From the IMG/VR virus record IMGVR_UViG_3300026347_000001, positions 1 to 20,128 of that record: DNA of 20,128 bases; one strand, given 5' to 3'. The notes below the pieces were generated by a model, which saw nothing but the letters and a program-made list of their open reading frames with translations, was not told the DNA's origin and made no database searches. Shown piece after piece: positions 1 through 20,128 of this stretch (positions are counted from its first letter, which is position 1; every line of letters begins with the position of its first letter). A program made the translations under genes and the position numbers. The DNA is from a virus.

Positions 1-305
1 CCACGTGGTGGGCGATGACCCCGGACATCGTTCGCTGTCTCGGTCGGATGGTGCCGGCTCCGGTGGGGCACCTCTTCTGCGACAACGCGGTCAAGGATCT
101 CGGAGAGGCCGCGGGGTGCCTGCGCTACCTTCCTGATGTGATGATCGAGCACATGCACCCGATTGCCGGCAAGGCCGACCTGGACTCCGGCTACGCCCGC
201 GTGAACGCGCAGGGGCAGTACGTCCATGATCGTGCGGTGTACGCGGGTTGGCGCGCGATGCACATGAACGGCCAGGCGGAGCGGATCCGGGAGCTGCGGT
301 CATGA
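1..305 (+). CDS. Glycosyltransferase, C-terminal end (partial)
   Basis: The frame is open through the left edge and stops at 303-305, so only the last ~100 residues are visible. They read TWWAMTPDIVRCLGRMVP, then HLFCDNAVKDLGEAAGCLRYLPDV and IEHMHPIAGKADLDSGYARVN. The D-N-A-V-x-D-L pattern followed by H-x-H-P resembles the C-terminal half of the family 2-like glycosyltransferases often encoded among actinophage capsid genes; such proteins would transfer sugars to virion or host surface components. The catalytic N-terminal half lies outside the window. An internal ATG at 15 is not a likely start, because coding continues upstream. The stop overlaps the next start (ATGA). Family call by recollection of similar phage proteins, not by search. 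Confidence 0.6.
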   Translation, partial: TWWAMTPDIVRCLGRMVPAPVGHLFCDNAVKDLGEAAGCLRYLPDVMIEHMHPIAGKADLDSGYARVNAQGQYVHDRAVYAGWRAMHMNGQAERIRELRS

Positions 306-1299: not shown

Positions 1300-1311
1300 G
1301 AGGAAACGACC

Positions 1312-1716
1312 ATGGCCACCTCGCACGGCAAGTACACAGTCTTCAAGCTCAACGCCAAGGACCTCAGCGACTACACGAACAACAGTCAGCTGGAGATCAC
1401 CTCCGACTCGCACGACGTCACCACCTACGGGAACGACGCCCACGTGTTCGCCGGCGGGTTGCTGAACGGCACCCTCACCGTGTCCGGCTTCTACGACACG
1501 TCGAACACGGACGGGCCGCGCGCCGTGATCAAGCCGTTGATCGGCACCGTCGTCACGGCCATCCACCAGCCGGAGGGCACGGGTACCGGGAAGCCGCAGG
1601 ACTCCGTCTCGGTGCTGGTCACGAAGTACACGCAGACGCACCCGGTTGCGGACATGGTCACCTGGTCTGTGGACCTGCAACTGTCCGGCGACGTCACCTC
1701 CACCACGCAGTCCTAG
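1312..1716 (+). CDS. Major tail tube protein
   Basis: 134 residues, ATG 1312 with a strong Shine-Dalgarno AGGAGG at 1300-1305, the best ribosome site among the tail genes, as expected for the most abundant tail protein. The sequence has the usual tube features: an alternating strand pattern, a loop with DVTTYGNDAHVFAGGLLNGTLTVSGFYDTSNTDGP, and a C-terminal strand SVDLQLSGDVTST. The Ser/Thr/Gly-rich composition fits the tube fold. It stacks as hexamer rings around the tape measure. It is followed directly by the tail chaperone pair, the standard order. Confidence 0.82.
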   Translation: MATSHGKYTVFKLNAKDLSDYTNNSQLEITSDSHDVTTYGNDAHVFAGGLLNGTLTVSGFYDTSNTDGPRAVIKPLIGTVVTAIHQPEGTGTGKPQDSVSVLVTKYTQTHPVADMVTWSVDLQLSGDVTSTTQS

Positions 1717-1729
1717 ATCTGGGAGAACC

Positions 1730-2068
1730 ATGACCGGCTACGCCACCCCCGAATCGCTCCTTGCAGGCGATCTCTCCGTTGCCGCGGAGGACGTCCAGCT
1801 CCCCTCCGGCGCTGTCGTCCGCTTGCGTGGCCTCAGCCGATTCGAGCTGCTGAACAACGGCAAGGGCACCGAGGATCCGCTGGAGGTGGAGGCCCGCAAC
1901 GTCAAGGCGTGCCTGATCGAGCCGAAGATGACGATCGATCAGGTGCGTGCGTGGCAACGTGTGGCGGTCGCTGGCGGCGACTTCCAGACCATGTCGAAGG
2001 TCATCCGTCGCTTGTCCGGCCTTGACGAGGGTGCCCAGAAAAGCGACGTGGCTGAGGCTGGAGACTGA
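1730..2068 (+). CDS. Tail assembly chaperone, short form (gpG-like)
   Basis: 112 residues, ATG 1730 preceded by GGGAG at 1721-1725. It is the first, unshifted product of the tail assembly chaperone pair that lies between tube and tape measure in siphoviruses. It binds the tape measure protein during assembly and is absent from finished virions. Visible features are an N-terminal DVQLPSGAVVRLRGLSRFELL (beta pair then helix) and helices around RAWQRVAVAGGDFQTMSKVIRRLSGL. The last residues (GAQKSDVAEAGD) precede the stop at 2066-2068, where a second frame carries the C-terminal extension. Confidence 0.75.
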   Translation: MTGYATPESLLAGDLSVAAEDVQLPSGAVVRLRGLSRFELLNNGKGTEDPLEVEARNVKACLIEPKMTIDQVRAWQRVAVAGGDFQTMSKVIRRLSGLDEGAQKSDVAEAGD

Positions 2069-2225
2069 CCCCGGTTTCCACTTCGACTTCTTTCTAGCCG
2101 CGAAGCTCGGGAAGACCCTCGGTGAGATCCGGGCGATGCCCGCGTCCGAGTGGCTGGAGTGGGGCGTTTACTACGGCCGCGAGGCGCAGCACATGGAGAT
2201 GGCGAAAGCGAGGGCCGGGAAGTGA
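1730..2225 (+). CDS. Tail assembly chaperone, frameshifted long form (gpGT-like)
   Basis: A second reading frame, open to TGA 2223-2225, codes LETDPGFHFDFFLAAKLGKTLGEIRAMPASEWLEWGVYYGREAQH, the kind of C-terminal T domain seen in phage tail chaperones. It has no convincing start of its own. Relative to the 1730 frame it lies +1 (or -2). A likely slip site is A-A-A-A at 2039-2042: the lysine tRNA on AAA 2039-2041 can re-pair one base forward on AAA 2040-2042. The product would join 1730-2041 to 2043-2225, 164 residues. The frame relation is directly visible; the exact slip site is inferred. Confidence 0.65.
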
Positions 2226-2635
2226 CTGAGCTGAGGGTCGCCGTCACGGGCCTTGCCGAGTTCAACAAGGGGTTGCGTCAGCTCGACAAGGAAGCTCCGA
2301 AGGGCTTGCGTCTGGCGCTGAACGAGGCCGCCGAGTTGCTCGTCTCGGAGACCAGGTCCCTCGTTCCGCGTCGCACCGGTGCCGCGGCCGGCTCCCTGCG
2401 CGCCGCCTCCACGCGGACGTCGGCGCGGGTCAAGGTCGGCGGGCCGAAGGCACCCTACTATCCGTGGCTGGACTTCGGTGGCCGCACGGGACGTCGCCGG
2501 TCAGCCGCACGCCCGTTCATCAAGGAGGGCCGGTACCTGTTCCCGACCCTCTCTCGCATCCGCCCGCGAGTGCTGGCCACCCTGGATGAGGCGATCCGCA
2601 CCGTGGCGCGTGACGTCGGATTGGACGTCGACTGA
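2222..2635 (+). CDS. HK97 gp10-like tail completion protein
   Basis: 137 residues from GTG 2222, overlapping the upstream stop as GTGA. A longer in-frame start at 2150 would overlap the chaperone extension and is disfavoured. The protein reads GLAEFNKGLRQLDKEAPKGLRLALNEAAELLVSETRSLVPRRTGAAAGSLRA, then YPWLDFGG and RPFIKEGRYLFPTL. The PxxTGxLxxS-like segment, the central Y-x-x-x-L/D-F-G and the late P-F-I are marks of the HK97 gp10 family of small tail or neck proteins. In most genomes this gene lies before the tube gene; here it is after the chaperones and before the tape measure. Confidence 0.7.
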   Translation: MTELRVAVTGLAEFNKGLRQLDKEAPKGLRLALNEAAELLVSETRSLVPRRTGAAAGSLRAASTRTSARVKVGGPKAPYYPWLDFGGRTGRRRSAARPFIKEGRYLFPTLSRIRPRVLATLDEAIRTVARDVGLDVD

Positions 2636-4008
2636 TGGCCGGGAACACCGTCAATCTGGAGTTCGCCGGCGATGCGGCGAAGCTCGCCAAGGCCAGCAAG
2701 GACGCACAGAAGTCCATCGCGGGCGTCAACGACGCGGTGATGACGCAGTCCGACAACATGGCGGACGCGTCGAAGTCGTCGGACAACTACCTTGATCGTG
2801 TCGGCAAGCTGGGCGCGGGGATCGAGGGGATGTCCACCGCGGTGGACAATGCCGGTGCCGCCGTGCAGGCGCTCGCCGATCTCCAGAACGCCGGCCGTGA
2901 GCGCGCGGCTCGCCTGGCGCGCGCGGCCAACGACGTCCGTCAGGCCACCGAGGACATGGCGCAGGCCACCCGGGACGCCAGCCAGGCGCAGATCGACAGC
3001 AAGCAGGCTGTTCTCGATGAGGAGCAAGCGCGCCTCGATCAGTCGGTGGCGCTGAAGGACTACAACAAGGCTGTCAAGGAGCACGGTAAGAACTCTGACG
3101 AGGCAAAGCAGGCACAGATCGATCTGAAGCAGGCGGGGATCGATCTGAAGCAGGCGCAGGAGGACTCCGCGCAGGCCACTCGCGACGCCAGCCAGGCGAG
3201 CATTGACGCTGAGGCGGCGCAGCTCGATCTCAACGACGCACAGGCCGAGGCGCATCCTCCCGAGATGCAACAGTGGGCGGACCAGATCAGCATGATCACT
3301 CCGTTGATCACCGGCCTGATGGGTGTAGTTGGGCTAATCACCGCCGCTCAGTGGCTGTGGAATGCCGCGCTCCTCGCCTCTCCGCTGACGTGGATCGTGT
3401 TGGCCATCGCCGCCGTCATAGCGATCATCGTCATCATCGCCACTAAGACGACGTGGTTCCAGGACATTTGGAAGGCGGCATGGGGTGGTATCAGGGCGGC
3501 GGCTCTCGCTGTCGGCCGATGGTTCCGTGACACTTTGTGGGGCAAGTACATAAAGGGTGCATGGGATTCGATAAAGAGCGCCGGAGAGAGCGTCTGGGAC
3601 TGGATGAAGAGCGTTCCGGGAAAGCTGAAGACGTCCTTCTCTAAAGTTACGTCATTCTTGTTCGCGCCTTTCCGTGCCGCCTTCAACCTCATTTCCGACG
3701 CGTGGAACAACACCATCGGTGGACTGCATTGGCAGGCACCCGCCATTCTCGGCGGATTCTCCGTCTCCGTTCCCAACCTGCCGCACTTCCACTCCGGCGG
3801 TGTCGTCGGCGGCCCTCCCGGTAGCGAGCAACTCGCCGTTCTTCAAGCCGGAGAAAGGGTGCTTCCGGCCACGTCGTCCGGCGGGGCGATGTCCATCACG
3901 ATCAACTCTGGTGGCTCACGGATGGATAATCTCCTCGTGGAGATACTCGCTGACGCGATCCGACGGCAAGGTGGCAACGTTCAGGCCGTGCTAGGGACTG
4001 GTGGCTGA
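2635..4008 (+). CDS. Tape measure protein (short)
   Basis: 457 residues, start by TGATG overlap with the previous stop. Layout: a helical N-terminus (1-60); a long Ala/Gln/Asp-rich coiled coil (about 60-210) with two copies of an ATRDASQA block near residues 110 and 180; a strongly hydrophobic part about 221-270 with two membrane-like spans; an amphipathic Trp-rich part (WFQDIWKAAWGGI, WDWMKSV); and a Gly-rich C-terminus with FHSGGVVGG and the AGERVLPATSSGG motif common to tape measures. It sets tail length and travels into the host envelope with DNA. At about 1.5 angstrom per residue it predicts a tail tube of only ~70 nm. Confidence 0.88.
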   Translation: MAGNTVNLEFAGDAAKLAKASKDAQKSIAGVNDAVMTQSDNMADASKSSDNYLDRVGKLGAGIEGMSTAVDNAGAAVQALADLQNAGRERAARLARAANDVRQATEDMAQATRDASQAQIDSKQAVLDEEQARLDQSVALKDYNKAVKEHGKNSDEAKQAQIDLKQAGIDLKQAQEDSAQATRDASQASIDAEAAQLDLNDAQAEAHPPEMQQWADQISMITPLITGLMGVVGLITAAQWLWNAALLASPLTWIVLAIAAVIAIIVIIATKTTWFQDIWKAAWGGIRAAALAVGRWFRDTLWGKYIKGAWDSIKSAGESVWDWMKSVPGKLKTSFSKVTSFLFAPFRAAFNLISDAWNNTIGGLHWQAPAILGGFSVSVPNLPHFHSGGVVGGPPGSEQLAVLQAGERVLPATSSGGAMSITINSGGSRMDNLLVEILADAIRRQGGNVQAVLGTGG

Positions 4009-6095
4009 TGGCCGATCATCCTCTCGACGCGCAGCTCTACTACGACGGCGTCTGGAATGACGTGTCCGGCGATGTCCGGCAGACGTCTCCGGTCACCATC
4101 GTCCGCGGCGGCGGAGAGGTCAGCGAGGCGCTCCGCCCGTCCACGGCATCCCTCACGTTCAACGATCCGGACGGCACCTACCGCCCAGACAGGGCCGCCT
4201 CTCCGCTCTATGGGAAGGTCGGCAGAAACACACCCCTGTCGCTTCCCGGCGGGGTATTCGAGGTTTCCGCATGGAAACCGGACAGGACGATCAGTTATGA
4301 CGGATCCGGTCGCGGAGATCAAACAACCGACATCGAAGCAGGTGGACTTCTCCGTCGTATTGGCACGTGGCGGACGCCGGTCATCTCAGCCCTTGACCAG
4401 ACCATTCCAGATCGATTCGGAAGCAACCTCATCGGGCATTGGCGACTCGAAGACAGCGAGCGAGCCACCTATCCCGGTCCCGAGGTCGGAGAGCTAGCGC
4501 GCCCCACGCAGAATTTCAATGCGTCGTTCGGGAACACCGATGCCCCGCCGGGGGCCAACAGTTCCGTGCAGCTCGCCCGCTCCAGCGCGATCACCGGCAT
4601 CTTTCTTCCGCACTCCGCTGCATCCGGATGGCGTGTCGCGTGGGCACTGAAGCTCGCCCGGTATCCCGACGCCACCACATACGCGGGCATCATGAACCTT
4701 CAGAGCGACAGCTACACATATCAGATATGGGTGAACGACACCTACTACCGGATGTACGTGTTCGATCGCGACACGGGGAGTATTCTCACGTCCGTTGATT
4801 TCGCGTACGGCGCCGCGCCAGTCAACTGGACGCTGATGACCATGGAAGTAGCTCCGTCGGGCGCGACTTCCACGTGGAGTGTTCGCTGGTACATCCAGGG
4901 CGACGACACGGTATGGTCAGCGACCGGCACGTCCACGGCTGCATGCGAGCCTTTGCGTCAGTGGCAGCGAGCCGGGAACGTCTATACCGAGGACAGTCTC
5001 TCGTCGGCCGTGTACGCCGTCGCCAACTCCACTGACGATCTTCTCGACGCGTATGCGCTACTCGCCTTCAACGGCTACCCGGGGGAGACGGCCGGCGCGC
5101 GTTTCGAACGGCTGATGGACCTGTATGGCCTCGACTGGACGATCGAGGGGAGCGCGTCGGACACCGAAGCGATGGGGCCGCAGTACCCGTCCACGCTCCT
5201 GGAGCACCTCAAGGAGATCCGGGACACCGATGGCGGCATGGTCTACGACTCTCCCGATGCTCTCGCGGTGACGTTCCGGACGCGCGTTGACCTTTATTCG
5301 CAGGATCCCGCCCTGGAGTTGACGTACGGCACCGACGTGGCGGCACCGTTCATGCCCGTGCTGGACGACTTGAACGCCGCGAACAAGGTCACCATCTCTC
5401 AGCGCGTCGGTGGCACGTTCACCGCGGAAGACACCACGTCGATCATGAGCACGCAGGCTCCGCCCGACGGGATCGGGGAGTACGCGCAGGACGTCACAGT
5501 GAACGTCGATGACGATGCCCGGCTGGAGCAGCGTGCTTCATGGGCACTGGCCGCTGGCACGGTGCCGGGTGCTCGCTACTCGTCCATCAGGATTGACCTT
5601 GACGCCAACCCTGAATTGGAGTCGGCGTGCGAGGCGCTGAAGCCCGGCGACCGCGTGACAGTCACTGGCTACGATCCGGACGTCATCGACCTGATGATCG
5701 TCACGATCACGGACACCCGTGAGAACCAGAAGCGCCGGTACTTCACGCTCGCCTGCAAGCCGTACACCCCGCATGACGTCGGGATCTACGACTCGACCGA
5801 TTACGCGTGGGACCTCGCCACGTGCACGCTGCAATTCGACACGCCAGCGGCTAATCACAACTTCGTAGTGATCATCACTAGTAAGTATGAACAGTGGTCC
5901 ACATCTGCCGCCTTCGACATCATGATCGCTGGTGAGCGCATCCACGTTCCCGCCGCCGGCGCCGCCGCGCCCACGGGAACAGGCCCGTTCTATCAGTTGC
6001 TATCCGGCGTCACGCGCGCCGTCAACGGCGTGGCCAAGGAGCTTCCGGCAGGCTCCGAGGTGCACATTTACAACCTCGGAAGGTGGGCGCTCTGA
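4008..6095 (+). CDS. Large minor tail protein with LamG-like lectin domain
   Basis: 695 residues, TGATG start overlap. The first ~130 residues (DAQLYYDGVWNDVSGDV, LTFNDPDGTYRPD) look like the N-terminal domain of actinophage baseplate or tail proteins. Residues about 140-320 begin LIGHWRLEDSE and run through QIWVNDTYYRMYVFDR, a beta-sandwich pattern like LamG/concanavalin domains that bind sugars. The C-terminal part (about 370-600) has ERLMDLYGLDWTIEG, EHLKEIRDTDGGMVYDSPDALAV and PGDRVTVTGYDP, like the tail-hub/host-contact region. It is the only large protein after the tape measure, so it probably combines distal-tail, hub and receptor roles. Confidence 0.7.
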   Translation: MADHPLDAQLYYDGVWNDVSGDVRQTSPVTIVRGGGEVSEALRPSTASLTFNDPDGTYRPDRAASPLYGKVGRNTPLSLPGGVFEVSAWKPDRTISYDGSGRGDQTTDIEAGGLLRRIGTWRTPVISALDQTIPDRFGSNLIGHWRLEDSERATYPGPEVGELARPTQNFNASFGNTDAPPGANSSVQLARSSAITGIFLPHSAASGWRVAWALKLARYPDATTYAGIMNLQSDSYTYQIWVNDTYYRMYVFDRDTGSILTSVDFAYGAAPVNWTLMTMEVAPSGATSTWSVRWYIQGDDTVWSATGTSTAACEPLRQWQRAGNVYTEDSLSSAVYAVANSTDDLLDAYALLAFNGYPGETAGARFERLMDLYGLDWTIEGSASDTEAMGPQYPSTLLEHLKEIRDTDGGMVYDSPDALAVTFRTRVDLYSQDPALELTYGTDVAAPFMPVLDDLNAANKVTISQRVGGTFTAEDTTSIMSTQAPPDGIGEYAQDVTVNVDDDARLEQRASWALAAGTVPGARYSSIRIDLDANPELESACEALKPGDRVTVTGYDPDVIDLMIVTITDTRENQKRRYFTLACKPYTPHDVGIYDSTDYAWDLATCTLQFDTPAANHNFVVIITSKYEQWSTSAAFDIMIAGERIHVPAAGAAAPTGTGPFYQLLSGVTRAVNGVAKELPAGSEVHIYNLGRWAL

Positions 6096-6553
6096 TGGCG
6101 GTAACCGGCGGCAACCCGATCTACGCTTCCGACCTGAATCTCGCCGCGGCCGTGAGTTTCGCCTCCACGGTGGTGACGGCCAACTCCGGATCCATCACCA
6201 CGACGACAACGAGCGTGGCGTCACTGACGGCGTCACTCACCAACGGCGCTGTCTACGGCCTGTGGTTCTACGGCCGCATCTCTTCCTCGGTGGCCGCGGA
6301 CATCGCCTACGTCCGCATCCATCCGACGTCGGTGGGTACTACGGAACTGAACATCTGCCCGGTGTACATCCCCACTACCACGACGGCCGGTTACGGCATC
6401 GCCTTGTACGCGGAGTACACGGCCTCAGCCACGGGTTCGCTCACGTTCCTGGCCAGCCTCCAGCGCAACACGGGTACCGGGAACATCATCCTGCGGGCGT
6501 CGTCGGCCGGGCCGGCGTACCTCACCTGTCGTCGCATCACGCCGTACAGCTAG
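6095..6553 (+). CDS. Small beta-rich minor tail protein
   Basis: 152 residues from ATG 6095, overlapping the preceding stop as TGATG; an in-frame GTG at 6083 is less likely. The N-terminus MAVTGGNPIYASDLN is the usual opening of actinophage tail-tip or fibre proteins. The rest is Ser/Thr/Ala-rich with alternating strands (GLWFYGRISSSVAADIAYVRIHP; IALYAEYTASATGSLTFLASLQR), suggesting a single jelly-roll or beta-sandwich exposed at the tail tip. Probably a receptor-contact or accessory protein. No enzyme motif is visible. Confidence 0.6.
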   Translation: MAVTGGNPIYASDLNLAAAVSFASTVVTANSGSITTTTTSVASLTASLTNGAVYGLWFYGRISSSVAADIAYVRIHPTSVGTTELNICPVYIPTTTTAGYGIALYAEYTASATGSLTFLASLQRNTGTGNIILRASSAGPAYLTCRRITPYS

Positions 6554-6660
6554 AACCGCCACCAATGCAGATACCAGGCGTTCGCGAACGCCATCGCCAG
6601 GATCACGCACGGCAGCATGAACGCCGGGAGATCCCAGATGCCGAGCTTGCGTCGCTTCAT
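6550..6660 (-). CDS. Possible 36-residue membrane peptide
   Basis: The 137-base gap between tail and endolysin genes holds an antisense frame of 36 residues: a basic start MKRRKLGIWD, one hydrophobic span AFMLPCVILAMAFANAWYL and an aromatic-basic end HWWRF. This is membrane-protein-like, while the + strand frame over the same bases is highly charged and looks like its shadow. Its stop overlaps the stop of the tail gene. The ribosome site is weak (GGAA) and no promoter is evident, so it may be chance. Confidence 0.3.
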   Translation of the reverse strand: MKRRKLGIWDLPAFMLPCVILAMAFANAWYLHWWRF

Positions 6661-6689
6661 GATCGGTTCCAATCTGTTAAGGATGTTCA

Positions 6690-7520
6690 ATGAGTGACTG
6701 GGTAGTGGTGCCGTGCCTACTGGCGCTCCGTGACGAATTCAACGCGCTCGCGCCCAGCCGAGACAAGGGCGCTGACGGGACGATCGGCGACAGCGCGCAC
6801 ACGTCGTCCTCCGATCACACCCCGGACGAGGACTCCGACGTCCTGCGCGACCACGACGCGGACGACAAGAACGAGGTCCACGCTCTCGACATCGACTCCA
6901 CGGGACCGTGGCCGGCTGGGCGCACCTTCCACGAGATCTGCATGGAGATCATCCGCCGCGAGAAGATCAAGTGGCTGGACGCGAACGACAAGTGCCGCCT
7001 TAACTACATGATCCACGACGGGTACATCTACGACAAGGACAACGATTTCGAGCCGGTCAAGTACAACGGCTCAGATCAGCACACCAACCACGCGCACTTC
7101 AGTTCGCGCTACGAGACCAGCTGCGAGAACGACACGCGCCCATGGGGCGTCTACGAGGAGGACGAGATGGATCAGGTGGAATTCACCAGCCTGCTGAGCG
7201 GCGCGCTCAACGACACGACCGTCCGGGAGCGGATGACTCGCGCCGTGCTCGGCACGGACGGCGTGATCGCCTCGCCGTCGGCAGCGAACAGCAAGAACGC
7301 GGACGGTACCGCCAATGAGTACTGGGCGGGAGGCTCGTTCCTCCAGAACCTGTACAACATGCTGGCCGCGCACAGGTCCGCCGACGTGCCGGCCATCCTG
7401 GCGGAGATCGGCGCGGTGCCGGAAGCCATCAAGGGGAGCACTGTGGAAGAGACCGCATCGATCCTGAAGGCCATACTCGGCGATGACGCGGCGGCAGTCG
7501 GGGCGCTGCTTCAGGCGTGA
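6690..7520 (+). CDS. Endolysin, M15-like Zn peptidase with C-terminal domain
   Basis: 276 residues, ATG 6690 with AAGGA at 6676-6680. Residues 1-145 resemble the D-Ala-D-Ala carboxypeptidase (peptidase M15) lysins of actinophages: S41-D-H43-T-P, then V63-H-A-L-D67-I-D69, and H131-T-N-H134-A-H136. H43, D67 or D69, and H134/H136 are the likely zinc ligands. An acidic stretch (DEDSDVLRDHDADDKNE) lies between H43 and D67. It would cut peptidoglycan peptide cross-links at lysis. Residues ~160-276 form a separate helical domain, presumably for wall binding or multimerisation. A strong internal ribosome site precedes residue Met160. Two small membrane genes follow, as in a lysis cassette. Confidence 0.8.
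   Translation: MSDWVVVPCLLALRDEFNALAPSRDKGADGTIGDSAHTSSSDHTPDEDSDVLRDHDADDKNEVHALDIDSTGPWPAGRTFHEICMEIIRREKIKWLDANDKCRLNYMIHDGYIYDKDNDFEPVKYNGSDQHTNHAHFSSRYETSCENDTRPWGVYEEDEMDQVEFTSLLSGALNDTTVRERMTRAVLGTDGVIASPSAANSKNADGTANEYWAGGSFLQNLYNMLAAHRSADVPAILAEIGAVPEAIKGSTVEETASILKAILGDDAAAVGALLQA
7155..7169 (+). promoter_or_regulatory. Internal ribosome site and start within the endolysin gene
   Basis: GAGGAGG at 7155-7161 is followed after 5 nt by an in-frame ATG at 7167-7169 (Met160). Its spacing is ideal. It would give a separate 117-residue C-terminal product. Some other lysins make a free wall-binding domain in this way; here it is inferred from sequence only. Confidence 0.45.
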
Positions 7521-9505: not shown

Positions 9506-9925
9506 TCAACGCCTGATCTCAACTACCTGAGTGACCTGGACGGAGGGGCCGTTGACGGCGCGCCGCGTCATCACCGTAGCGGCGGCCAGCACCGCGCACG
9601 CCAGCACGAACATCACCGCAGGAAGCGCAGTGATCACCTCGATCACGAGGATCACGAGCAGCGCCATCCCGGTGAGCGACAGCCCGACGGCGATGATCCC
9701 CTTCGCCCACGCGGGATACGGCTCGGGCAGTTCGCGAAGCAGGCTCACCTTCACCCCGTACCCGCCGCCGGCGCGCCTGTGGAACCGGGAGACCGGCGAC
9801 GCCGCATAGATGTAGCCGCGGCGCTGAAGCCGCTTCAACTGTCGAAGCACCGCGGCCTCGCTCCGCCCGCGCAACACGGTCACGCCGATGGGGCGGACCC
9901 CCTGACTCACCTCGATCTCACGCAC
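9506..9925 (-). CDS. Hypothetical membrane protein, two spans
   Basis: 139 residues from GTG 9925 with a strong ribosome site GGGAGGA just upstream. The first ~70 residues are soluble and basic (RGRSEAAVLRQLKRLQRRGYIYAASPVSRFHRRAGGGYGVKVSLL), with a helix-turn pattern. Residues ~75-118 hold two hydrophobic spans (GIIAVGLSLTGMALLVILVI and PAVMFVLACAVLAAATVM). The C-terminus ends SVQVTQVVEIRR. The start overlaps the WhiB-like gene by 8 bases, so both are on one transcript. Not recognised; possibly a membrane-tethered nucleic-acid or host-interaction protein. Confidence 0.65.
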   Translation of the reverse strand: MREIEVSQGVRPIGVTVLRGRSEAAVLRQLKRLQRRGYIYAASPVSRFHRRAGGGYGVKVSLLRELPEPYPAWAKGIIAVGLSLTGMALLVILVIEVITALPAVMFVLACAVLAAATVMTRRAVNGPSVQVTQVVEIRR

Positions 9926-10172
9926 GATTCCTCCCAGATTGGATCCTGCCGTCGATCAACCACTCCCCGCCGAACACGCCGTTAGCGCGGTGCTCGACGC
10001 CCCACGGGAGACACACGTCCTTCAGCGGGCAGTACGAACAGATCGTGGCGGCGCGACGGCGCGCCCGCTGGCCGTCGATGTTGCGCGCCGTCTCCGTGAA
10101 GTCGTCCGGCCTGCGCGTCGTGGGGCACAGAGCCTGCCCACTCATCGCGAAAGCGGGAATCGCCTCAGCCAT
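9918..10172 (-). CDS. WhiB-like (Wbl) Fe-S transcription regulator
   Basis: 84 residues from ATG 10172 (TGATG overlap with the GIY-YIG gene); ATG 10184 is the alternative and adds four residues. Four cysteines C16, C45-x2-C48 and C54 match the Wbl cluster ligands (C...CxxC...C), followed by G65-V-F-G-G-E-W, a version of the conserved G-[IV]-W-G-G turn with Phe in place of Trp. The tail RNRA is short and basic, suiting DNA contact. Wbl proteins bind a 4Fe-4S cluster and the main sigma factor in actinobacteria; phage copies can interfere with host WhiB control. This supports an actinobacterial host. Confidence 0.8.
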   Translation of the reverse strand: MAEAIPAFAMSGQALCPTTRRPDDFTETARNIDGQRARRRAATICSYCPLKDVCLPWGVEHRANGVFGGEWLIDGRIQSGRNRA

Positions 10173-10717
10173 CACCGCAGCCATGAGGTCACCGCCGCCA
10201 CCACCAGGAGTGCCACAGTCGCACCGTGCGCGGGACGCGCGTTCGGCGAAAGTCCGAGCCGGGTGCGGTCACGGAAGGCGCGCTGTCGCTTCGCTGCGCT
10301 GAGCGGGATCCGCCGGGGATTCCAGCCGTTCTTCGCATGGTTGTACGCCGGCGCGAGCACCATGATCAGCAGCGTCTCGACAGCCCGCAGCAACGGCTTC
10401 CATCGCGGCAGAGGGATCCGGAACGCCACCCGCGGCGACAGGTCCGCCCACGGCTGCGCAGCCTTCCCGTACCGGCCGCCGCCGTCGATGTGTTCGCCGT
10501 GCCGGTCCTTGAAGCTGAACGTCTCCCCTACGTAGGCGAAGTGCCTTCCGGACAGGAGCAGGCACGCCAGCCCGAACCACCACGGGATATCCGTCGGCAC
10601 CAGCGCGAGACTCGTTCCCGCTGCGGCGGCAGCGGCTGCGTAGTCGGGGATGTTCAGCCTGCCGATCAGGCTCGCCGGCTTACGCGTGCGGTAGACGTAG
10701 ACGCCTCCACCCTTCAC
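10172..10717 (-). CDS. Membrane GIY-YIG nuclease-like protein
   Basis: 181 residues, GTG 10717 with AGGGGA upstream and GTGA overlap. Residues G5-V-Y7 and Y62-V-G64 match the two short motifs of GIY-YIG nucleases, followed by FKDRHGEH (R72, H76), a helix with E114 (LLRAVETLLIMVLAPAYN) and N126, matching catalytic Arg, metal-binding Glu and late Asn. Normally GIY and YIG are ~10 residues apart; here 54 residues separate them and hold a hydrophobic insert (YAAAAAAAGTSLALVPTDIPWWFGLACLLL). A third hydrophobic stretch (ATVALLVVAAVTSWL) ends the protein. A membrane-associated nuclease is inferred. It lies between a Zn-finger protein and WhiB in one operon. Confidence 0.6.
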   Translation of the reverse strand: MKGGGVYVYRTRKPASLIGRLNIPDYAAAAAAAGTSLALVPTDIPWWFGLACLLLSGRHFAYVGETFSFKDRHGEHIDGGGRYGKAAQPWADLSPRVAFRIPLPRWKPLLRAVETLLIMVLAPAYNHAKNGWNPRRIPLSAAKRQRAFRDRTRLGLSPNARPAHGATVALLVVAAVTSWLR

Positions 10718-10920: not shown

Positions 10921-12861
10921 ATGGAGCAGAACAACAACGGGCTCGCGCCTACCATCGCCAGCTTCCGCCTCAGATGGTGGACCCCCCGCGGTGCCACCTA
11001 CCTCGCTGTTCGTACCGGGTGGCGGTACTTCGTCACCGGACGCGAGATCCGCGGTAACGGTGACAACGCCACCTTCTGGCACGACGCCACCAGAGATCAC
11101 CGCGGCAATCCCGTGGAGAAGCTCTCCCGGGCACGCTGGCGTCGCGTCGCCCGGCGATGGGTGATTGCCGGCGTCCCCGCGATCATGGCCGGGATCGACG
11201 GCGCGGCCGGCGTCACGTCGGCGGGATGGCAGGCACTCGGCCAGACGCCGCCGGCGTGGGCGCAGCTCCCGTACGGGACGGCGCTGCTCGCCTACGTCTG
11301 CGTGGTAGCCGGCGTCTCCGCCACCGTGGCGGCACCGATCGTCGCCGCCTGGTGGCGCACCCGGCACATCCGCTCCACCTACGTCTACCCCGCCGCGGCG
11401 ATCCTCGCGAAGGTCACCGGCGTCAAGGTCGGCAAGCGCGACGCGCTCAGCATGATCGAGTTGCCGTCGAACTTCGGGGAACCGTCCGATAGCGAACCCG
11501 AGCCCATCCGCGTGTACGTGCCGGACGGCATCGTCCTCGACACCGCCTCGAAAAAGCGCATCGCGGACGCCGTCGGATCCCGTCTCGGCGCGCCCGAGCC
11601 CGTGGCGCGGTGGACGGAGTCCGGCGTCGTGCGCCGGTACGTGGAGCTGCTCCCGCAGTCCGTGCCCGACTCGATCCCGTCGATCGAGCACCTGATGCCC
11701 GAGCTGCTAGAGACCACCATGGGTAACCCGATGGTGGGAGTCATGAAGGGTCGGCGGATCTCCCGGATCGACATGCACAACGACTCGCCCCACACCCTGG
11801 GGAGCGCGGGCAGCGGCGCGGGCAAGAGCACCTTGTACAAGCTGATCGCCATGCAGCGTCTGCGTCTCGGTGCCTACGCGGTGATCCTCGACTTCAAGAA
11901 ATGGTCGCATCTGCGGTGGGCCGGCCGCCTCCCCGCCGGGCGCGTTGCCATGGAGGACACGGTCGCCGGCATCCACGACATGCTGATCAAGGTTCTCGAC
12001 GAACTCATCTGGCGCAAGTCCTTCAATCTCGATCAGGAGGACGAACTCGCGGCCCTCCCCGTCCTGGACGTTTACGTGGAGGAGATCAACACGCTGATGG
12101 CGCTGCTGGTCTCCTACTGGCAGTCCGAGCGTGCCCGGATCAGGCAGGAGGCGCGTACCGCCCTGCGCCGGATCAAGGAGACCGCGAAGCGCTCCGGTGA
12201 CCCCGACTGGTACGCCGCGGAGATCGAGGAAGCGGAGGACGAACTCGCCCGCGCGAACGGCCTGCCGGTCACGTCCCCTGCCGTCCAGGCGATCCGGTTC
12301 GGGGTCAATCTCGGACGCGAGTTCAAAGTCCACTTCCACTTCATCGGCCAGTCCGTCTCCGCTCAGGCCGCGGGTGGACGTGACACCCGTGAGTCCTTCC
12401 AGACGCGCCTACTCGCCCGCTGGAACGAGAAGACGTGGAAGATGCTCGCGGACGGAATCCCGTTCGTCTCCTGTCCGTCCGGAGACGTAGGCATCTGGGC
12501 TCACGTCCATCAGGGGACGTATGAGATCGTCCGCGTCCCGTACGTCCCGGACGAATTCGCCGTGCGATACGTCCTCGCCGGAGAGCGTCCGTCCATGCCG
12601 ATGTTCCACGGGGACGTTCGTCCGTCCATGGACGCGTCCTCCCATCCGTCCATCGCGTCCACCGAGCCGCTCTCGAAGATCCTGGACGTACTACCCGCGA
12701 AGAAGGACGGATCCCGGATCACCCTCAAGGCCCTGCGTCTCGCGTCCGGTAGGGACGGATTCCCGGTGCCCACCAATACGGTGACCGCCGGCCATGCTGC
12801 TCTGTACGACGTCGACGAGGTACTCGCGTGGTTCCGGAGCAGGGAAGGCTTGACCGCCTGA
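10921..12861 (+). CDS. FtsK/SpoIIIE-type DNA translocase (TraB-like)
   Basis: 646 residues from ATG 10921 (a GTG sits at 10918; ATG fits the leaderless spacing). Two hydrophobic spans at about 80-105 and 120-145 anchor it to the membrane. The ATPase core has Walker A G294-SAGSGAGKST and Walker B VLDVYVEEIN (about 381-390), then HFHFIGQSVSAQAAGGRDTRESFQTRLLARW. Such proteins pump double-stranded DNA; in Streptomyces plasmids the TraB/Tra relative alone drives mycelial DNA transfer. The C-terminus (about 590-646, TLKALRLASGRDGFPVPTNT, then ALYDVDEVLAWFRSREG) resembles an excisionase/MerR-type winged helix, not the usual FtsK gamma. A Spd-like gene is next door on the other strand. Confidence 0.8.
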   Translation: MEQNNNGLAPTIASFRLRWWTPRGATYLAVRTGWRYFVTGREIRGNGDNATFWHDATRDHRGNPVEKLSRARWRRVARRWVIAGVPAIMAGIDGAAGVTSAGWQALGQTPPAWAQLPYGTALLAYVCVVAGVSATVAAPIVAAWWRTRHIRSTYVYPAAAILAKVTGVKVGKRDALSMIELPSNFGEPSDSEPEPIRVYVPDGIVLDTASKKRIADAVGSRLGAPEPVARWTESGVVRRYVELLPQSVPDSIPSIEHLMPELLETTMGNPMVGVMKGRRISRIDMHNDSPHTLGSAGSGAGKSTLYKLIAMQRLRLGAYAVILDFKKWSHLRWAGRLPAGRVAMEDTVAGIHDMLIKVLDELIWRKSFNLDQEDELAALPVLDVYVEEINTLMALLVSYWQSERARIRQEARTALRRIKETAKRSGDPDWYAAEIEEAEDELARANGLPVTSPAVQAIRFGVNLGREFKVHFHFIGQSVSAQAAGGRDTRESFQTRLLARWNEKTWKMLADGIPFVSCPSGDVGIWAHVHQGTYEIVRVPYVPDEFAVRYVLAGERPSMPMFHGDVRPSMDASSHPSIASTEPLSKILDVLPAKKDGSRITLKALRLASGRDGFPVPTNTVTAGHAALYDVDEVLAWFRSREGLTA

Positions 12862-12867
12862 CACGGG

Positions 12868-12902
12868 AGAGCCCCGGTGAGATCCTGCCTCACCGGGGCT
12901 CT
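12868..12902. terminator. Two-way terminator after the translocase
   Basis: AGAGCCCCGGTGAG (12868-12881) pairs perfectly with 12889-12902 (14-bp stem, 7-nt loop). It starts 7 nt after the translocase stop and lies before the stop of the convergent gene at 12913. Confidence 0.85.
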
Positions 12903-12912
12903 GACCTGGGGT

Positions 12913-13143
12913 TCAGTCGTCTTCTGAGGTACCTCGCTCCCGTCTGCGGCGTAGCTCGTACGCCGCCTGCGCCATCGCTGCCCGCTCCGGGGTGTTCACC
13001 CTGGCACAGCACCCGGGACCGTAGTCCAGCCTGCCGGAGCAGGGGCAGAACGCCGGGTGGCAGCGTCCGTACTTGGCCTCGTGGCAACGGCAGGGGTATT
13101 CGTCCTTGAGACGCGTCCCCGCGATCAGCCATACGTCCTTCAC
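12913..13143 (-). CDS. Cysteine-rich small protein, putative zinc binder
   Basis: 76 residues from GTG 13143 overlapping the stop of the DUF2637 gene (GTGA), so translation is coupled. The core reads YPCRCHEAKYGRCHPAFCPCSGRLDYGPGCCARV with cysteines 18, 20, 28, 33, 35, 45 and 46 plus His21 and His29, enough for two zinc sites. The C-terminus is a basic helix AAMAQAAYELRRRRERG with an acidic tail. Longer in-frame extension upstream is unlikely because it lies inside the neighbour. Not recognised; expressed with the Spd-like protein. Confidence 0.65.
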   Translation of the reverse strand: MKDVWLIAGTRLKDEYPCRCHEAKYGRCHPAFCPCSGRLDYGPGCCARVNTPERAAMAQAAYELRRRRERGTSEDD

Positions 13144-13853
13144 CGTTCGTCCTTTCCGATCGCGTCCCGGACGCGTCCAGCGTGAAGGACGGATACCCCG
13201 GACGTGGACGCGACCTCTGCGTCCGTCCGTCCGTCCTGGATGAGACGTACCGCGCGCTTCGTCCTCTGCCACGGCTTCGCGGTCAGTCCGTCCACCATCT
13301 CGAGTACGTCCGAGTCCGTCCGTCCGTCCATCAGAAGGCGGACCGCCTTCTCCACGTCCCATGCCGCCGCGCGTCCGCGCGTCCCGGCGTTCGTCCGCGG
13401 CTTCGGCGCGGGAACCGTCCGCGGCTTAGGTTTCGGCGCGAGCGGGACGATCGGCAGCATCTCCGGGTACACCCGGGTCGTCTTCTCGACCACCTTCTCC
13501 GGTACGTCCTTCGTCCGCCCCGTCGCCTCGATCAGGAAGGACGCGAACATGCACACCGGCATGCTGGACGCGATCAGCCGTGCGTCCATGGCCACTGCCC
13601 CTTCCGCGTCCAGGTTGAAGGCGAGGGAGTAGAACGCTCCGATCAACAGCGCCACCAGCCCGGCGAAGCGTCGCCCCGACTGGACGGACCGGATGCCCAC
13701 GTAGATCAGGCCGTCGATCCCGATGGGGTAGACGGGGCTGATCCACCACGGGTTGCTCTCGCTCACCACGGTCATGATGTGCCCGGCGGACGCGATGAAC
13801 GCCGCACCGGCCACGATCCCGGCGATCGCCTCGCTCTTCACGTTGACCTTCAT
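13140..13853 (-). CDS. DUF2637 (Spd-like) membrane protein with C-terminal HTH repeats
   Basis: 237 residues, ATG 13853. Four hydrophobic spans lie at about 9-29, 36-56, 62-82 and 92-110; the P-V-Y-P-I-G-I-D-G-L-I-Y segment in span 2 is the mark of DUF2637 proteins, common on Streptomyces plasmids near tra and spd (spread) genes. A Pro/Lys-rich linker (PLAPKPKPRTVPAPKPR) leads to two similar helix-turn units, AVRLLMDGRTDSDVLEMVDG and AVRLIQDGRTDAEVASTSG, likely DNA-binding. Probably helps DNA transfer or partner binding with the adjacent FtsK/TraB-like protein. Driven by operator 4 with a leader hairpin that hides its ribosome site. Confidence 0.75.
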   Translation of the reverse strand: MKVNVKSEAIAGIVAGAAFIASAGHIMTVVSESNPWWISPVYPIGIDGLIYVGIRSVQSGRRFAGLVALLIGAFYSLAFNLDAEGAVAMDARLIASSMPVCMFASFLIEATGRTKDVPEKVVEKTTRVYPEMLPIVPLAPKPKPRTVPAPKPRTNAGTRGRAAAWDVEKAVRLLMDGRTDSDVLEMVDGLTAKPWQRTKRAVRLIQDGRTDAEVASTSGVSVLHAGRVRDAIGKDER

Positions 13854-14329: not shown

Positions 14330-14496
14330 CACTTCTCCCTCGTGATCTCGTCGATCTTCCGGTCGACGATGATGAAGCAGGCGGTCGCCCAGACGCCCAC
14401 CGAGATAACCGCGACGTAGCCGAACCAGTCGATCCACAGACTCGCCACCCCGGTGGCGCCGGCGACCGCTCCCGCGATGCTCCTCAGCGCGTTCAT
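14329..14496 (-). CDS. Small membrane protein, 55 residues
   Basis: ATG 14496 overlaps the stop of the beta-solenoid gene (ATGA), and its own stop overlaps the next start (TGATG). The product MNALRSIAGAVAGATGVASL, WIDWFGYVAVISVGVWATACFIIV, DRKIDEITREK has two hydrophobic segments and a charged helical end. Tight overlaps on both sides support it as real. Function unknown; an inner-membrane anchor for the operon's products or a superinfection factor is possible. Confidence 0.6.
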   Translation of the reverse strand: MNALRSIAGAVAGATGVASLWIDWFGYVAVISVGVWATACFIIVDRKIDEITREK

Positions 14497-14834
14497 CGGT
14501 GGTCCACCACCGTGGCGTTGTGGCGCGCGCTAACCGTGGTGCATCCGTACACGTGCACAGTGGCGTCGTCGGATGCCCATACCATGGTGTCATCGAATGC
14601 CAACACCCTGACATTGCCGTACGCGTACACCTTGGAGTTGCCGCACGCGTACACCGCGGAGTTGCCATACGCTCTCACCGTGGAGTTGCCGTGCGCGTAC
14701 ACCGTGGCGTCGCCGTGCGCGTACACCGTGGCGTAGCCGGACACCACGAAAGCGCCCGCCTTGACTCTGACGGCGTAGCCGGCCTTGACTGCCTCGTTCA
14801 TCTCCTGCTGCGTGGTAACCGTCTTCATCTCCAT
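14493..14834 (-). CDS. Octapeptide-repeat beta-solenoid protein
   Basis: 113 residues from ATG 14834, which lies 6 nt after the -10 box; TTG 14840 is an unlikely alternative. After a helical start (MEMKTVTTQQEMNEAVKAGYAV) about ten copies of an 8-residue unit follow: ATVYAHGD, ATVYAHGN, STVRAYGN, SAVYACGN, SKVYAYGN and so on, with V at position 3, A at 5 and G-[ND] at the turn. Regular V-x-A-x-G-N spacing predicts a narrow beta-helix, similar to pentapeptide or hexapeptide solenoids, which can mimic DNA or act as surface adhesins. Its N-terminus MEMKT is shared with neighbours in other cassettes. Confidence 0.65.
   Translation of the reverse strand: MEMKTVTTQQEMNEAVKAGYAVRVKAGAFVVSGYATVYAHGDATVYAHGNSTVRAYGNSAVYACGNSKVYAYGNVRVLAFDDTMVWASDDATVHVYGCTTVSARHNATVVDHR
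14526..14752 (-). repeat. 24-bp degenerate tandem repeat in the solenoid gene
   Basis: The unit, on the + strand about GCGTACACCGTGGAGTTGCCGT, recurs every 24 bp with drift, each copy coding one octapeptide. The best-matching copies lie at 14618-14748. Divergence grows toward the gene 3' end (lower coordinates), as if new copies were added near the N-terminal side. Confidence 0.65.
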
Positions 14835-14913: not shown

Positions 14914-15012
14914 CTACCGGCGGACCACCGTGGCGTCGCAGAAGGTGGACAGGGCTTCGCGGGTGGCCGGCGCCAGTGGTGGGGCTCCGGCGCGGGAACG
15001 GGAACGCAGCAA
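14914..15012 (-). CDS. Possible 32-residue peptide
   Basis: TTG 15012 with GGAG 7 nt upstream on the - strand. Product MLRSRSRAGAPPLAPATREA, then LSTFCDATVVRR, with GC-rich third positions (about 26 of 31). It lies between two terminators, so is isolated from its neighbours, but no promoter of the repeat family is present and the start codon is weak. Could instead be a leftover of a degraded gene. Confidence 0.35.
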   Translation of the reverse strand: MLRSRSRAGAPPLAPATREALSTFCDATVVRR

Positions 15013-15034
15013 GGATCACTCCAGAAAGACGAAA

Positions 15035-15100
15035 AGGGCCGCCTCCGGGCGCGCACCGCCACACCGGGAAGGTGGGGCGGGCATCACCGGAGGCGGCCCT
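15035..15100 (-). terminator. Long-stem terminator after the 135-residue gene
   Basis: AGGGCCGCCTCCGG at 15035-15048 pairs perfectly with 15087-15100 (14 bp). The 38-nt loop can fold again (CCGCC..CACC with GGTG..GGCGG). On the - strand TTTTCGTCTTT follows. Confidence 0.75.
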
Positions 15101-17850: not shown

Positions 17851-17877
17851 ACTGTTTCTCCTGTTTCATCCGTGAGT

Positions 17878-17896
17878 CACGAGACGGTATCTCGTG
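17878..17896. repeat. Inverted repeat upstream of the 215-residue gene
   Basis: CACGAGA (17878-17884) pairs with TCTCGTG (17890-17896), 5-nt loop. It adjoins and overlaps the palindrome 17893-17908 (CGTGATCG/CGATCACG), so two alternative stems share 17893-17896. Confidence 0.6.
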
Positions 17897-17900
17897 ATCG

Positions 17901-17989
17901 CGATCACGGGAGGAATCGAACCTCCAGCCCCTCGCGACATTGCCGCAACCAACGGCCTGTTTCGCTCGGCTGACCCAGCAGACGTGATC
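17901..17989 (-). tRNA. tRNA-like element, 89 nt, identity uncertain
   Basis: On the - strand a 7-bp acceptor stem GATCACG (17989-17983) / CGTGATC (17908-17902) encloses a canonical T arm, GGAGG-TTCGATT-CCTCC (17925-17909), in correct spacing to the 3' strand. Possible anticodon arms are CGTTG-GTTGCGG-CAATG (anticodon TGC, Ala) or GCCG-TTGGTTG-CGGC (GGT, Thr), but the distance to the acceptor and the D arm is not standard. No encoded CCA. Either a degenerate tRNA, a type II tRNA I cannot fold by eye, or a host tRNA 3' end copied in an attachment site. Confidence 0.4.
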
Positions 17990-18027
17990 TGTCGCCCCCA
18001 CCGCCTACGCCCGTCTCCGGGTATCTC

Positions 18028-18052
18028 GCCGCATCGGAGAATCCGATGCGGC
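18028..18052 (-). terminator. 11-bp hairpin inside the structured stretch
   Basis: GCCGCATCGGA (18028-18038) pairs perfectly with TCCGATGCGGC (18042-18052), loop GAA. No U-run follows on either strand, so terminator function is uncertain; it might separate RNA units. Confidence 0.45.
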
Positions 18053-18286
18053 CTGTTGCGATACGTGGCGAGGGCAGGGTTTGCGCCTGCATCTCCGGGA
18101 GCAGTACCCGGTGTCCTGTCTACCGCTTCGAGCGCTCTCCGCAGCTGCTTAGACGACCTCTCCTTGCCCGTCTCTCCGGGCCGTCGCGCCTCTATCAGGG
18201 CGTTCTCGCCGGTTTCCTTCGCGTACCCCGACATCGGTTCCTGCCGGGGCTTAGCCTGCGTGTCTACCGGTAACCACTTTCGGCTG

Positions 18287-18311
18287 TGCCCCGTCGTGGA
18301 TTCGAACCACG
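18287..18311 (-). other. Isolated tRNA T-arm and acceptor 3' half
   Basis: On the - strand CGTGG-TTCGAAT-CCACG (18311-18295) followed by ACGGGGC and A looks like the 3' part of a tRNA. The nearest matching 5' strand, GCCCCGG, leaves only 16 nt before the T arm, too little for D and anticodon arms. It resembles a tRNA remnant or attachment-site core. Confidence 0.35.
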
Positions 18312-18362
18312 ATCACCCTCATCCTGTCCGGGGCTAACTATCACCGGCCTAACCACCTACCG

Positions 18363-18417
18363 GCACCGGGAGCCCGCGAAATTCGAGCCATGCAAACCGG
18401 GTCTCCCCGGTGCTCCC
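18363..18417 (-). other. Competing RNA stems
   Basis: GCACCGGG (18363-18370) can pair with CCCGGTGC (18406-18413). The same 18406-18411 can instead pair locally with 18396-18401, giving a 6-bp stem with a GAGA tetraloop on the - strand. A third stem joins GGGAGC (18368-18373) to GCTCCC (18412-18417). These exclude each other in part. Confidence 0.4.
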
Positions 18418-18430
18418 GTTCCCTTGCTTC

Positions 18431-18448
18431 TAACTAAGAGCTTAGTAC
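18431..18448 (-). promoter_or_regulatory. Operator-like dyad 9, degenerate
   Basis: On the - strand GTACTA-AGCTCT-TAGTTA keeps the 6-6-6 layout with 3 mismatches to the consensus arms. Like the others it lies right after a stop codon (18450). Downstream is the structured stretch, not a gene. Confidence 0.45.
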
Positions 18449-18449
18449 A

Positions 18450-19493
18450 TCAGGGGGTGCTGCGCAAGAGGCGATCCCGGGATTTCCTCGCCTCGTCCGC
18501 CAGCACCTCGCACCACACGCCGGCGGCCCGCGCCTCAGCCACCAGACGCGACCCCTCCGCAAGACTATCCACCGCAGCGAACCGGGCGGCGTACTGCTCC
18601 GTCACGGTCACCGGCGGGGCCTGACGCAGCCACGCTCGCGGGTTCTCCTTCGACTTCCCGCCCCGACGATCCTGCGTCACCTGGAAAGCGAGCTGCGCCG
18701 TACACCAACCGGCCTCGATGTCCACCTCGTACACGTCCACGGCAGGCTCCCCGCTCGGATGCTCCTTTGGCATCCACAGCACCATCGCCACCTCGCGGGA
18801 GACGGGCGGCATGTCCACCCACCGCCCGTCCTCCCACACGGCGTCCGCGTTGGCGTAGCAGGCCAGCTGCGCCGCGATCTCCAACCACGTCCAGAACTTC
18901 TTCTGCGTCTTCAGGTCACCGATGTGCACGATCCCCGTGGCCCCATCCCGCAGGGCCGCGTCCAGGGTGCCCACCGCTTCGAAGCGCTCGATCAGCACAC
19001 GCCGCTCCGCCCACCCCGGCAGACGCTCCAGCCCGTTACGACTCAGGGCCGACGTGAACAGGGACAGCTGACGCCGCCCGTACGCGTCGGTGGCGGGCAT
19101 CGGAGTGCCGAGGTGCTGCGCCTCCACCAGGGCATGCCGGCTGTTGCCGAACTCCGACCCCTCGTTCCCGCCGGAGATGGCCTTGCACCGATCCAGGAAC
19201 CCTTCCACCTCGCCGCGCCGCGTCGGGTAGTCCGCACCCCGGATCGCCTCCATCGTGAGGGCGAGATCCCGCATGACGGTCGCTTCGTCCAGGTGAATGG
19301 CGATCATCATCTGTTGCATCTCCCACACGCGCAGCCCGAACGAGTCGGTGATGGCGCTCACCAGGTTGGTTACGCGCTGCCACCCACCCTTCTTGTGACT
19401 GCCGTCCCGGTTCGGGAGCCGATACCGGCCCGCCGTGATCACCTCATCCCGACGGGTCATCAGGTCAGACGGCGCTGCGAACGGGTCATCCAT
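18450..19493 (-). CDS. RecB/Cas4-like PD-(D/E)XK exonuclease
   Basis: 347 residues from ATG 19493 with GGGAGG upstream; a TTG seven codons earlier is unlikely. Catalytic features in order: H120 in GNSRHALVE, G175-T-L-D178, G192-D193-L-K195-T, and Q209-x3-Y213 in WLEIAAQLACYANA, the RecB/Cas4 set (H, D, D/E-x-K, QxxxY). Such phage enzymes resect DNA ends for recombination or replication. It lacks a visible Fe-S cysteine cluster. The N-terminus MDDPFAAPSDL shares the DDPFA motif with the 215-residue protein. It overlaps the preceding gene by 8 bases. Confidence 0.75.
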   Translation of the reverse strand: MDDPFAAPSDLMTRRDEVITAGRYRLPNRDGSHKKGGWQRVTNLVSAITDSFGLRVWEMQQMMIAIHLDEATVMRDLALTMEAIRGADYPTRRGEVEGFLDRCKAISGGNEGSEFGNSRHALVEAQHLGTPMPATDAYGRRQLSLFTSALSRNGLERLPGWAERRVLIERFEAVGTLDAALRDGATGIVHIGDLKTQKKFWTWLEIAAQLACYANADAVWEDGRWVDMPPVSREVAMVLWMPKEHPSGEPAVDVYEVDIEAGWCTAQLAFQVTQDRRGGKSKENPRAWLRQAPPVTVTEQYAARFAAVDSLAEGSRLVAEARAAGVWCEVLADEARKSRDRLLRSTP

Positions 19494-20128
19494 TGCTACC
19501 TCCCAGACGAGCAACGAGCGGGTCGATCCTGCGCGACCCCAGAACCGTATCGATCAGGTCTGACACTTCTCCGGCACGCATGCCGTCGTGGGTGGCCACG
19601 CCGAGCGCGTGCGCCTTGTGCAGCAACTTCTCCGAGGGCTGCTTTCCCCGCCACCGCGCCTTACGGTTACTGAGGTCCATGTCGAAACAGCCGGCAAGCT
19701 CCTCGGCCACCTCCACGGCCGCGTCCTTCGGGATGCCGCGGTGCACGGTCATCCCCACGGAGCGCGGTTTCTGACCGGCCATGGCGAACCATCGATGATC
19801 GAGCACGCGATCCGTGAGGGGCGGGTCGAACGCCGACGTCGTGCACCAGCACACGGACCACTGTCCCGGCGCGGGCCACTCGGCGAGGAACAGGTACACC
19901 TGCGTGCCGCCGGTCAAGAACGCCGTCCCGCTCTTCGTGCTCTTCCACGTGACCGGCGTCCGGCCACGCCCGAGAGGGTCGAACTCCCGGTACTCGACCG
20001 GCCCGTCGTACACCTTCCCTTCGTCCGCGGCCACCCCCTCGCCGGCGTCGAACTCGTCTTCTAGTTCGGTGAGGGTCTTGTTCGACCGAGCCTCGGTCGG
20101 ATCGATCTTCCGGTCGGACAGGTCGGCC
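19486..20128 (-). CDS. Hypothetical protein, 5' end beyond the window (partial)
   Basis: The frame is open through the right edge; at least 213 residues. The visible upstream part reads ADLSDRKIDPTEARSNKTLTELEDEFDAGEG, so a GTG at 20034 is not necessarily the start. The centre is strand-rich (DGPVEYREFDPLGRGRTPVTW, GGTQVYLFLAEWPAPGQWSVCWCTTSAFDPP). The C-terminus is helical and basic (LSNRKARWRGKQPSEKLLHKAHALGVATHDGMRAGEVSDLIDTVLGSRRIDPLVARL). Probably in the same operon as the exonuclease. Not recognised. Confidence 0.55.
   Translation of the reverse strand, partial: ADLSDRKIDPTEARSNKTLTELEDEFDAGEGVAADEGKVYDGPVEYREFDPLGRGRTPVTWKSTKSGTAFLTGGTQVYLFLAEWPAPGQWSVCWCTTSAFDPPLTDRVLDHRWFAMAGQKPRSVGMTVHRGIPKDAAVEVAEELAGCFDMDLSNRKARWRGKQPSEKLLHKAHALGVATHDGMRAGEVSDLIDTVLGSRRIDPLVARLGGSNG

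Follow-up and report, generated by a model that had tools for sequence, protein, structure and literature searches.

A membrane ATPase and DUF2637 gene pair of actinomycete siphophages, shared with Streptomyces plasmids: a possible role in the movement of phage DNA

Organisation of the window

The DNA analysed here, referred to below as the window, is the whole IMG/VR entry IMGVR_UViG_3300026347_000001, a linear record of 20,128 bp that is probably a fragment of a phage genome. Its DNA gave no megablast match among 50,697 phage records. The left part carries a tail module of siphophage type, and the right part consists mainly of early genes on the minus strand, ending in an exonuclease gene followed by the end of a helicase gene (Table 1). 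Between the lysis and the replication genes lies a cassette that includes the genes of an ATPase, a DUF2637 protein and a GIY-YIG-like protein. An earlier note, made from the sequence alone, had reported the ORFs for the ATPase, the DUF2637 protein and a Cys-rich protein at this place and a tail module in the same window; all of them are confirmed, the Cys-rich ORF being set to 12913-13143 on the minus strand. The WhiB-like gene and the GC content of 65% point to an actinobacterial host, presumably a mycelial (filamentous) one.

Table 1. Coordinates of the main features of the window
Feature	Position	Strand	Remark
Head-tail connector, tail and putative lysis module, siphophage type	302-7520	+	lysis role of 6690-7520 presumed
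WhiB-like regulator	9918-10184	-	phrog_472, E 2.6e-7
GIY-YIG-like protein, C-terminal hydrophobic segment	10172-10717	-	kept beside ATPase gene
ATPase, membrane dsDNA-translocase type (FtsK/TcpA fold, pRL2-11 family), 646 aa	10921-12861	+	
Perfect 14-bp inverted repeat, probable bidirectional terminator	12868-12902	.	between convergent genes
Cys-rich protein, 76 aa	12913-13143	-	GTG start overlaps DUF2637 stop
DUF2637 protein, 237 aa, with four membrane helices and a helix-turn-helix region at the C-terminus	13140-13853	-	
Phage exonuclease, adjoining replication arm	18450-19493	-	phrog_466, E 5e-47; syntenic in relatives
DNA helicase, C-terminal part, truncated by window end	19486-20127	-	41-47% to 575-599-aa helicases of G001-G003

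Several other features were observed. Two overlapping ORFs (1730-2225, plus strand), flanked by the genes of the major tail protein and the tape measure, resemble a pair of tail assembly chaperones produced via ribosomal frameshifting. A small protein (14493-14834, minus strand) with VYAHGNATVYAHGN-type repeats, probably a beta-helix, matches phrog_15773 and tail families of PHROG. No tRNA genes were detected in the window by ARAGORN; a 600-bp gap without genes (17851-18449, minus strand) holds a tRNA-like cloverleaf at 17902-17989 (tRNA-Sec model, 21.6 bits, below the cut-off). Another T-arm-like stretch lies near 18284-18330, and both are possibly decayed tRNA genes.

The phage group of the window

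The window (G000) belongs to a group of four phages, its ATPase sharing 55-62% identity with those of G001 (42.5 kb), G002 (about 41.6-41.7 kb) and G003 (41.4 kb). G002 carries a 127-bp terminal direct repeat in a record labelled 'linear', and because of this repeat it can be considered a complete circular assembly. In these three relatives, the genes occur in the order GIY-YIG-like, ATPase, Cys-rich, DUF2637, DUF1353, exonuclease and helicase, DUF1353 being detected in two of them. No close relative of the group was found in 72,556 plasmids, 84,980 genomes and 396 sampled genomes of the phylum. The 84,980 genomes were scanned with short peptide patterns on contigs of at least 3 kb; since the group fits the pattern SAG[ST]GAGKS exactly, a close copy should have shown.

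Identity and fold of the ATPase

The ATPase gene starts with GTG at 10918 or ATG at 10921 and ends at 12861, giving a protein of 646-647 aa. The residues of its Walker A motif, GSGAGKS, are invariant across three alignments (A1, A4 and A5), and a VEE motif is also present. Pfam is almost silent on the single sequence (AAA_10 at E 0.075). A tblastn search reaches 45 plasmid records, 43 of which come from Streptomyces (E down to 4e-31), whose proteins, annotated pRL2-11, Tra, FtsK or DUF87, align over their full length with ~27-30% identity. The HMM search for FtsK_SpoIIIE proposed in the earlier note succeeds at this level: of the 13 proteins in the plasmid-based alignment, 11 hit that family (best E 2e-5), and the plasmid relatives also match DUF87 (DUF87/HerA).

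The AF2 model of the protein (pLDDT 86) matches TcpA (Z 26.2) and FtsK (Z 24.4) over residues 147-566. Weaker matches are seen with the type VII secretion ATPases, for the motor alone (Z 20-24), and with HerA, VirB4 and TrwB (Z 16-18). Long helices are modelled at 72-105 and 119-166; one predicted hydrophobic segment passes the threshold in this ATPase and two in that of G021, a more distant phage. As judged from the model, the ATPase is an FtsK/TcpA-type membrane translocase with predicted N-terminal membrane helices. The TraB/FtsK-like translocase proposed in the earlier note is retained for its FtsK half, while the likeness to TraB is confined to the P-loop core. A C-terminal winged helix is unproven, HTH_17 being matched weakly in two relatives alone (E 0.005 and 0.08). 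The gene is under purifying selection (dN/dS ~0.25 for G001 vs G002).

A role as packaging motor, which would have contradicted the earlier reading, was ruled out, given this fold and the presence of separate large terminases in G001 and G003; a terminase distinct from the ATPase is likewise encoded by circular G002.

The DUF2637 protein and the other neighbours of the ATPase

With 21.6 bits against PF10935, the DUF2637 protein of the window lies under the Pfam cut-off of 22.8. The family assignment, for which an HMM search had also been advised, is carried by 18 matches among 20 aligned relatives, and the protein of G003, from the same group, exceeds the cut-off. The AF2 model displays helices at 5-33, 41-58, 62-83 and 91-112, followed by a C-terminal helical domain (pLDDT ~96), and several relatives match helix-turn-helix families; the protein may bind DNA at the membrane. 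Searches with the single sequence gave no match (tblastn vs phages and plasmids), as the family is too divergent. Foldseek with the model gave no significant match, and the similarity to the DUF2637 protein of pRL2 is weak (9%, E 0.003). Purifying selection is also seen here (dN/dS ~0.57, G001 vs G002).

The 76-aa Cys-rich protein has homologues in G001, G002 and G003 (37-61% identity). Its gene and that of the DUF2637 protein are convergent with the ATPase gene, and a single operon including the ATPase and DUF2637 genes was ruled out because they face each other. The inverted repeat that separates them folds far better than shuffled sequences on both strands (z -4.6 and -4.2) and comparable hairpins occupy the same position in two relatives (L014 and L015), which makes it a probable shared terminator.

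For the protein encoded at 10172-10717, beside the ATPase gene, the residues R, H, Y, G, R, H, E, Y and N are invariant (alignment A7), as expected for a GIY-YIG nuclease. Pfam recognizes GIY-YIG in one of the nine members of the family (E 0.0025), and its profile has no match among PDB sequences. The nuclease label, drawn from these sequence patterns, is provisional. The C-terminal hydrophobic stretch was read straight from the sequences.

Spread of the ATPase-DUF2637 pair

A scan of IMG/VR with the single ATPase sequence found no relative; the alignment-based scan found relatives in 39 contigs. Among these contigs and the window (40 records), an HK97-type capsid is found over the cut-off in 23 (25 at E <=0.001) and a portal gene in 23. 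Pfam finds DUF2637 in 18 of the 39 contigs; a wider search places it beside the ATPase in the window, in 22 of the 39 viral loci, as well as in ten loci on chromosomes. This occurrence in viral contigs indicates that the pair is no lone plasmid insert. The DUF2637 gene is nearly always upstream and codirectional, being downstream and convergent in the window's group alone. Furthermore, in five more distant phages (G005, G006, G008, G019 and G021), the ATPase is accompanied by DUF2637 and a GIY-YIG-like gene, next to the exonuclease and helicase genes already seen in the group.

In a tree of 72 ATPase sequences, built with a quick method and rooted at the midpoint, phage sequences alone make up the window's group, with full support, and also a second set, with 95% support. 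The plasmid ATPases form their own set, and those of Micromonosporaceae chromosomal loci are interspersed with integrase-bearing phages. The exact place of the window's group is unsure since long branches meet nearby. Several chromosomal loci, with integrase-like genes close by, resemble AICEs (actinomycete integrative and conjugative elements), and others are prophages. An IMG/VR provirus (L029) and a locus of the Actinoplanes italicus chromosome (L096) encode an identical ATPase with tail-like genes nearby, so that the latter is a possible cultured lysogen.

The loci L043-L052 and Streptomyces phage Dagobah (L002) make up a separate branch of short ATPases (~300-330 aa) devoid of the N-terminal membrane part, near which no DUF2637 was found. 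On several plasmids, shorter second relatives, annotated as hypothetical, occur downstream of the first ATPase (L006, 15040-16536; L007, 14853-16571; L010, 9648-10586).

Comparison with known transfer systems

The nearest plasmid relatives of the ATPase are the pRL2-11 or 'Tra' proteins, carried mostly by linear Streptomyces plasmids. In pRL2, pFRL3 and pFRL6, these proteins share the Walker A, LD.K..SH and EE.N motifs with the window's ATPase and the DUF2637 gene lies directly upstream, which agrees with the earlier statement that the pair is typical of Streptomyces plasmids. However, DUF2637 is codirectional there, as opposed to convergent in the window. The window also differs by its phage tail module, and in the tree the plasmid proteins stand apart from its group.

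The TraB/Tra proteins of pIJ101 and pSVH1 have a similar size and a membrane N-terminus, but their full-length alignment with the window's ATPase fails. Transfer by a single Tra protein was elucidated on pIJ101. The parallel drawn by the earlier note with such single-protein systems holds for the P-loop core, which is homologous to that of pIJ101 Tra (hhalign probability 58-95%, 156-173 columns), but not for the partner, SpdB of pIJ101 showing no relation to DUF2637 (hhalign probability 0.3%). In the TraB family, clt/TRS repeats are bound by a C-terminal winged helix; around the ATPase gene of the window, no convincing clt-like repeat cluster was recognised apart from repeats in coding sequence.

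The best structural match, and the best match among PDB sequences, is TcpA, the coupling protein of the C. perfringens plasmid pCW3, although identity is only 16%. TcpA acts together with a plasmid-borne transfer apparatus. AICEs also use an FtsK-type Tra, and some Micromonosporaceae loci combine the ATPase, DUF2637 and a nearby integrase-like gene, whereas no integrase was found in the window's group. Among the 50,697 phage records, the sole ATPase match is HUN42_00087 of Dagobah, which differs by its size (309 aa). In another phage, Geonosis, a replication role was suggested for an FtsK-like protein (PMC11536984).

The question of a phage-plasmid

According to the earlier note, the element could be a phage-plasmid that spreads between hyphae in addition to forming virions. 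It would then be a prophage kept as a plasmid and would also conjugate via its Tra-like motor. There is a named precedent, the Streptomyces plasmid-phage pZL12, which from its literature description joins phage and transfer genes on one replicon. The title of the original work, as cited in PMC4487206, announces its replication, transfer and plasmid/lytic phage cycle; a passage of PMC3583192 states that its transfer requires a major tra gene and two adjacent genes, and one of PMC4487206 reports ParA/ParB. Clusters of 8-bp repeats beside a primase-helicase gene are found in G005 (14932-15065, TGTGCACA) and G021 (2830-3016, CACTCCGG/CCGGAGTG); these iteron-like repeats are possible replication origins of iteron type and would suit a plasmid state.

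However, neither tyrosine (PF00589) nor serine (PF00239) integrases were found in the four phages of the window's group, the window being partial and G002 complete. Across the 40 records, a tyrosine integrase is present in 11 and a serine recombinase in three. ParA is found in none of the 40 and ParB in none of the 13 searched, both sets including the window, G001, complete G002 and G003; pZL12, as described, is set apart in this respect. That no close plasmid or cellular copy of the group turned up in the collections searched also disfavours a phage-plasmid, without being proof. For a window that is a 20-kb fragment, these gene searches speak against a plasmid state rather than exclude it; this part of the earlier note is not supported and a phage-plasmid appears improbable.

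Possible functions of the cassette

The motor, the DUF2637 protein and the GIY-YIG-like protein can tentatively be regarded as a conserved membrane DNA-handling set of actinomycete siphophages. What this set handles DNA for is a matter of similar caution: it may move double-stranded phage DNA through membranes, and in a filamentous host this would most likely happen at septa or from one hypha to another. DUF2637 would tether phage DNA to the membrane, where the motor would hexamerise and drive the double-stranded molecule through. Passage across septa or between hyphae would then allow neighbouring compartments to be infected without a virion, and the cassette would be part of the phage's own infection programme, not of a plasmid state.

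Movement of DNA is considered the likeliest role, at somewhat less than even odds, because the same membrane motor and DUF2637 are common to phages, plasmids and integrating elements that otherwise differ in their genes. It is supported by the TcpA/FtsK fold, the plasmid homologues named Tra, the adjacency of DUF2637 and the conserved neighbourhood, as well as by the capsid and portal genes (23 of the 40 records each), purifying selection and separate terminases. By analogy, SpdB2 of pSVH1 also lends support, since this integral membrane protein both binds DNA and has TraB as an interaction partner (PMC4170104). Count must be taken, on the other side, of the lack of a clt-like cluster, the unproven winged helix and the mycelial nature of the host, itself presumed. 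In the literature searched, no transfer phenotype is reported for any member of the family. Furthermore, the short homologues of Dagobah and several contigs, without membrane part and with no DUF2637 found, indicate that the motor can serve another purpose.

The main rival is a task at the membrane that involves no transfer between cells: while the phage replicates or takes over the host, its DNA would be anchored, segregated or processed there by the cassette, which would be comparable to motor-nuclease pairs but bound to the membrane. Its location in the replication arm, adjoining the exonuclease and helicase genes, and the GIY-YIG-like neighbour would fit such a role, as would the plasmid relatives, matched by DUF87/HerA as well as by FtsK, and the HerA structures. 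However, TcpA and FtsK are clearly better matches (Z 24-26 vs 16-18) over more residues, and the pair is present on plasmids and integrase-bearing elements whose replication genes are quite different, which argues for a shared transport job; this explanation is considered somewhat unlikely.

The three proteins have predicted membrane segments and one of them is nuclease-like, and HerA-type motors, which are among the structure matches, are found in anti-phage complexes. This could suggest a module for exclusion or defence, by which DNA arriving from a superinfecting phage or a conjugative plasmid would be blocked or destroyed at the membrane. The presence of the motor pair on plasmids and integrase-bearing loci as well argues against such a module, to which little likelihood is given.

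Significance

If the cassette does move DNA, a broader proposal can be made, and it is an unlikely one at present: widespread, non-integrating soil actinophages would possess their own machine for moving DNA from cell to cell, the viral equivalent of plasmid conjugation, and would spread as naked double-stranded DNA through the mycelium before or besides virions. To our knowledge, the travel of phages through a septate bacterial mycelium is poorly understood. Plasmid-phages such as pZL12 aside, no dedicated DNA-movement cassette was found credited to a phage in the literature searched. Such a machine would unite conjugation with viral infection within a single genome, and would account for the occurrence of the pair in phages and plasmids as well as in chromosomal elements of the same bacteria. 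With a function deduced from homology and gene neighbourhood, it would mean that phages of filamentous bacteria may push their DNA from cell to cell besides travelling as particles.
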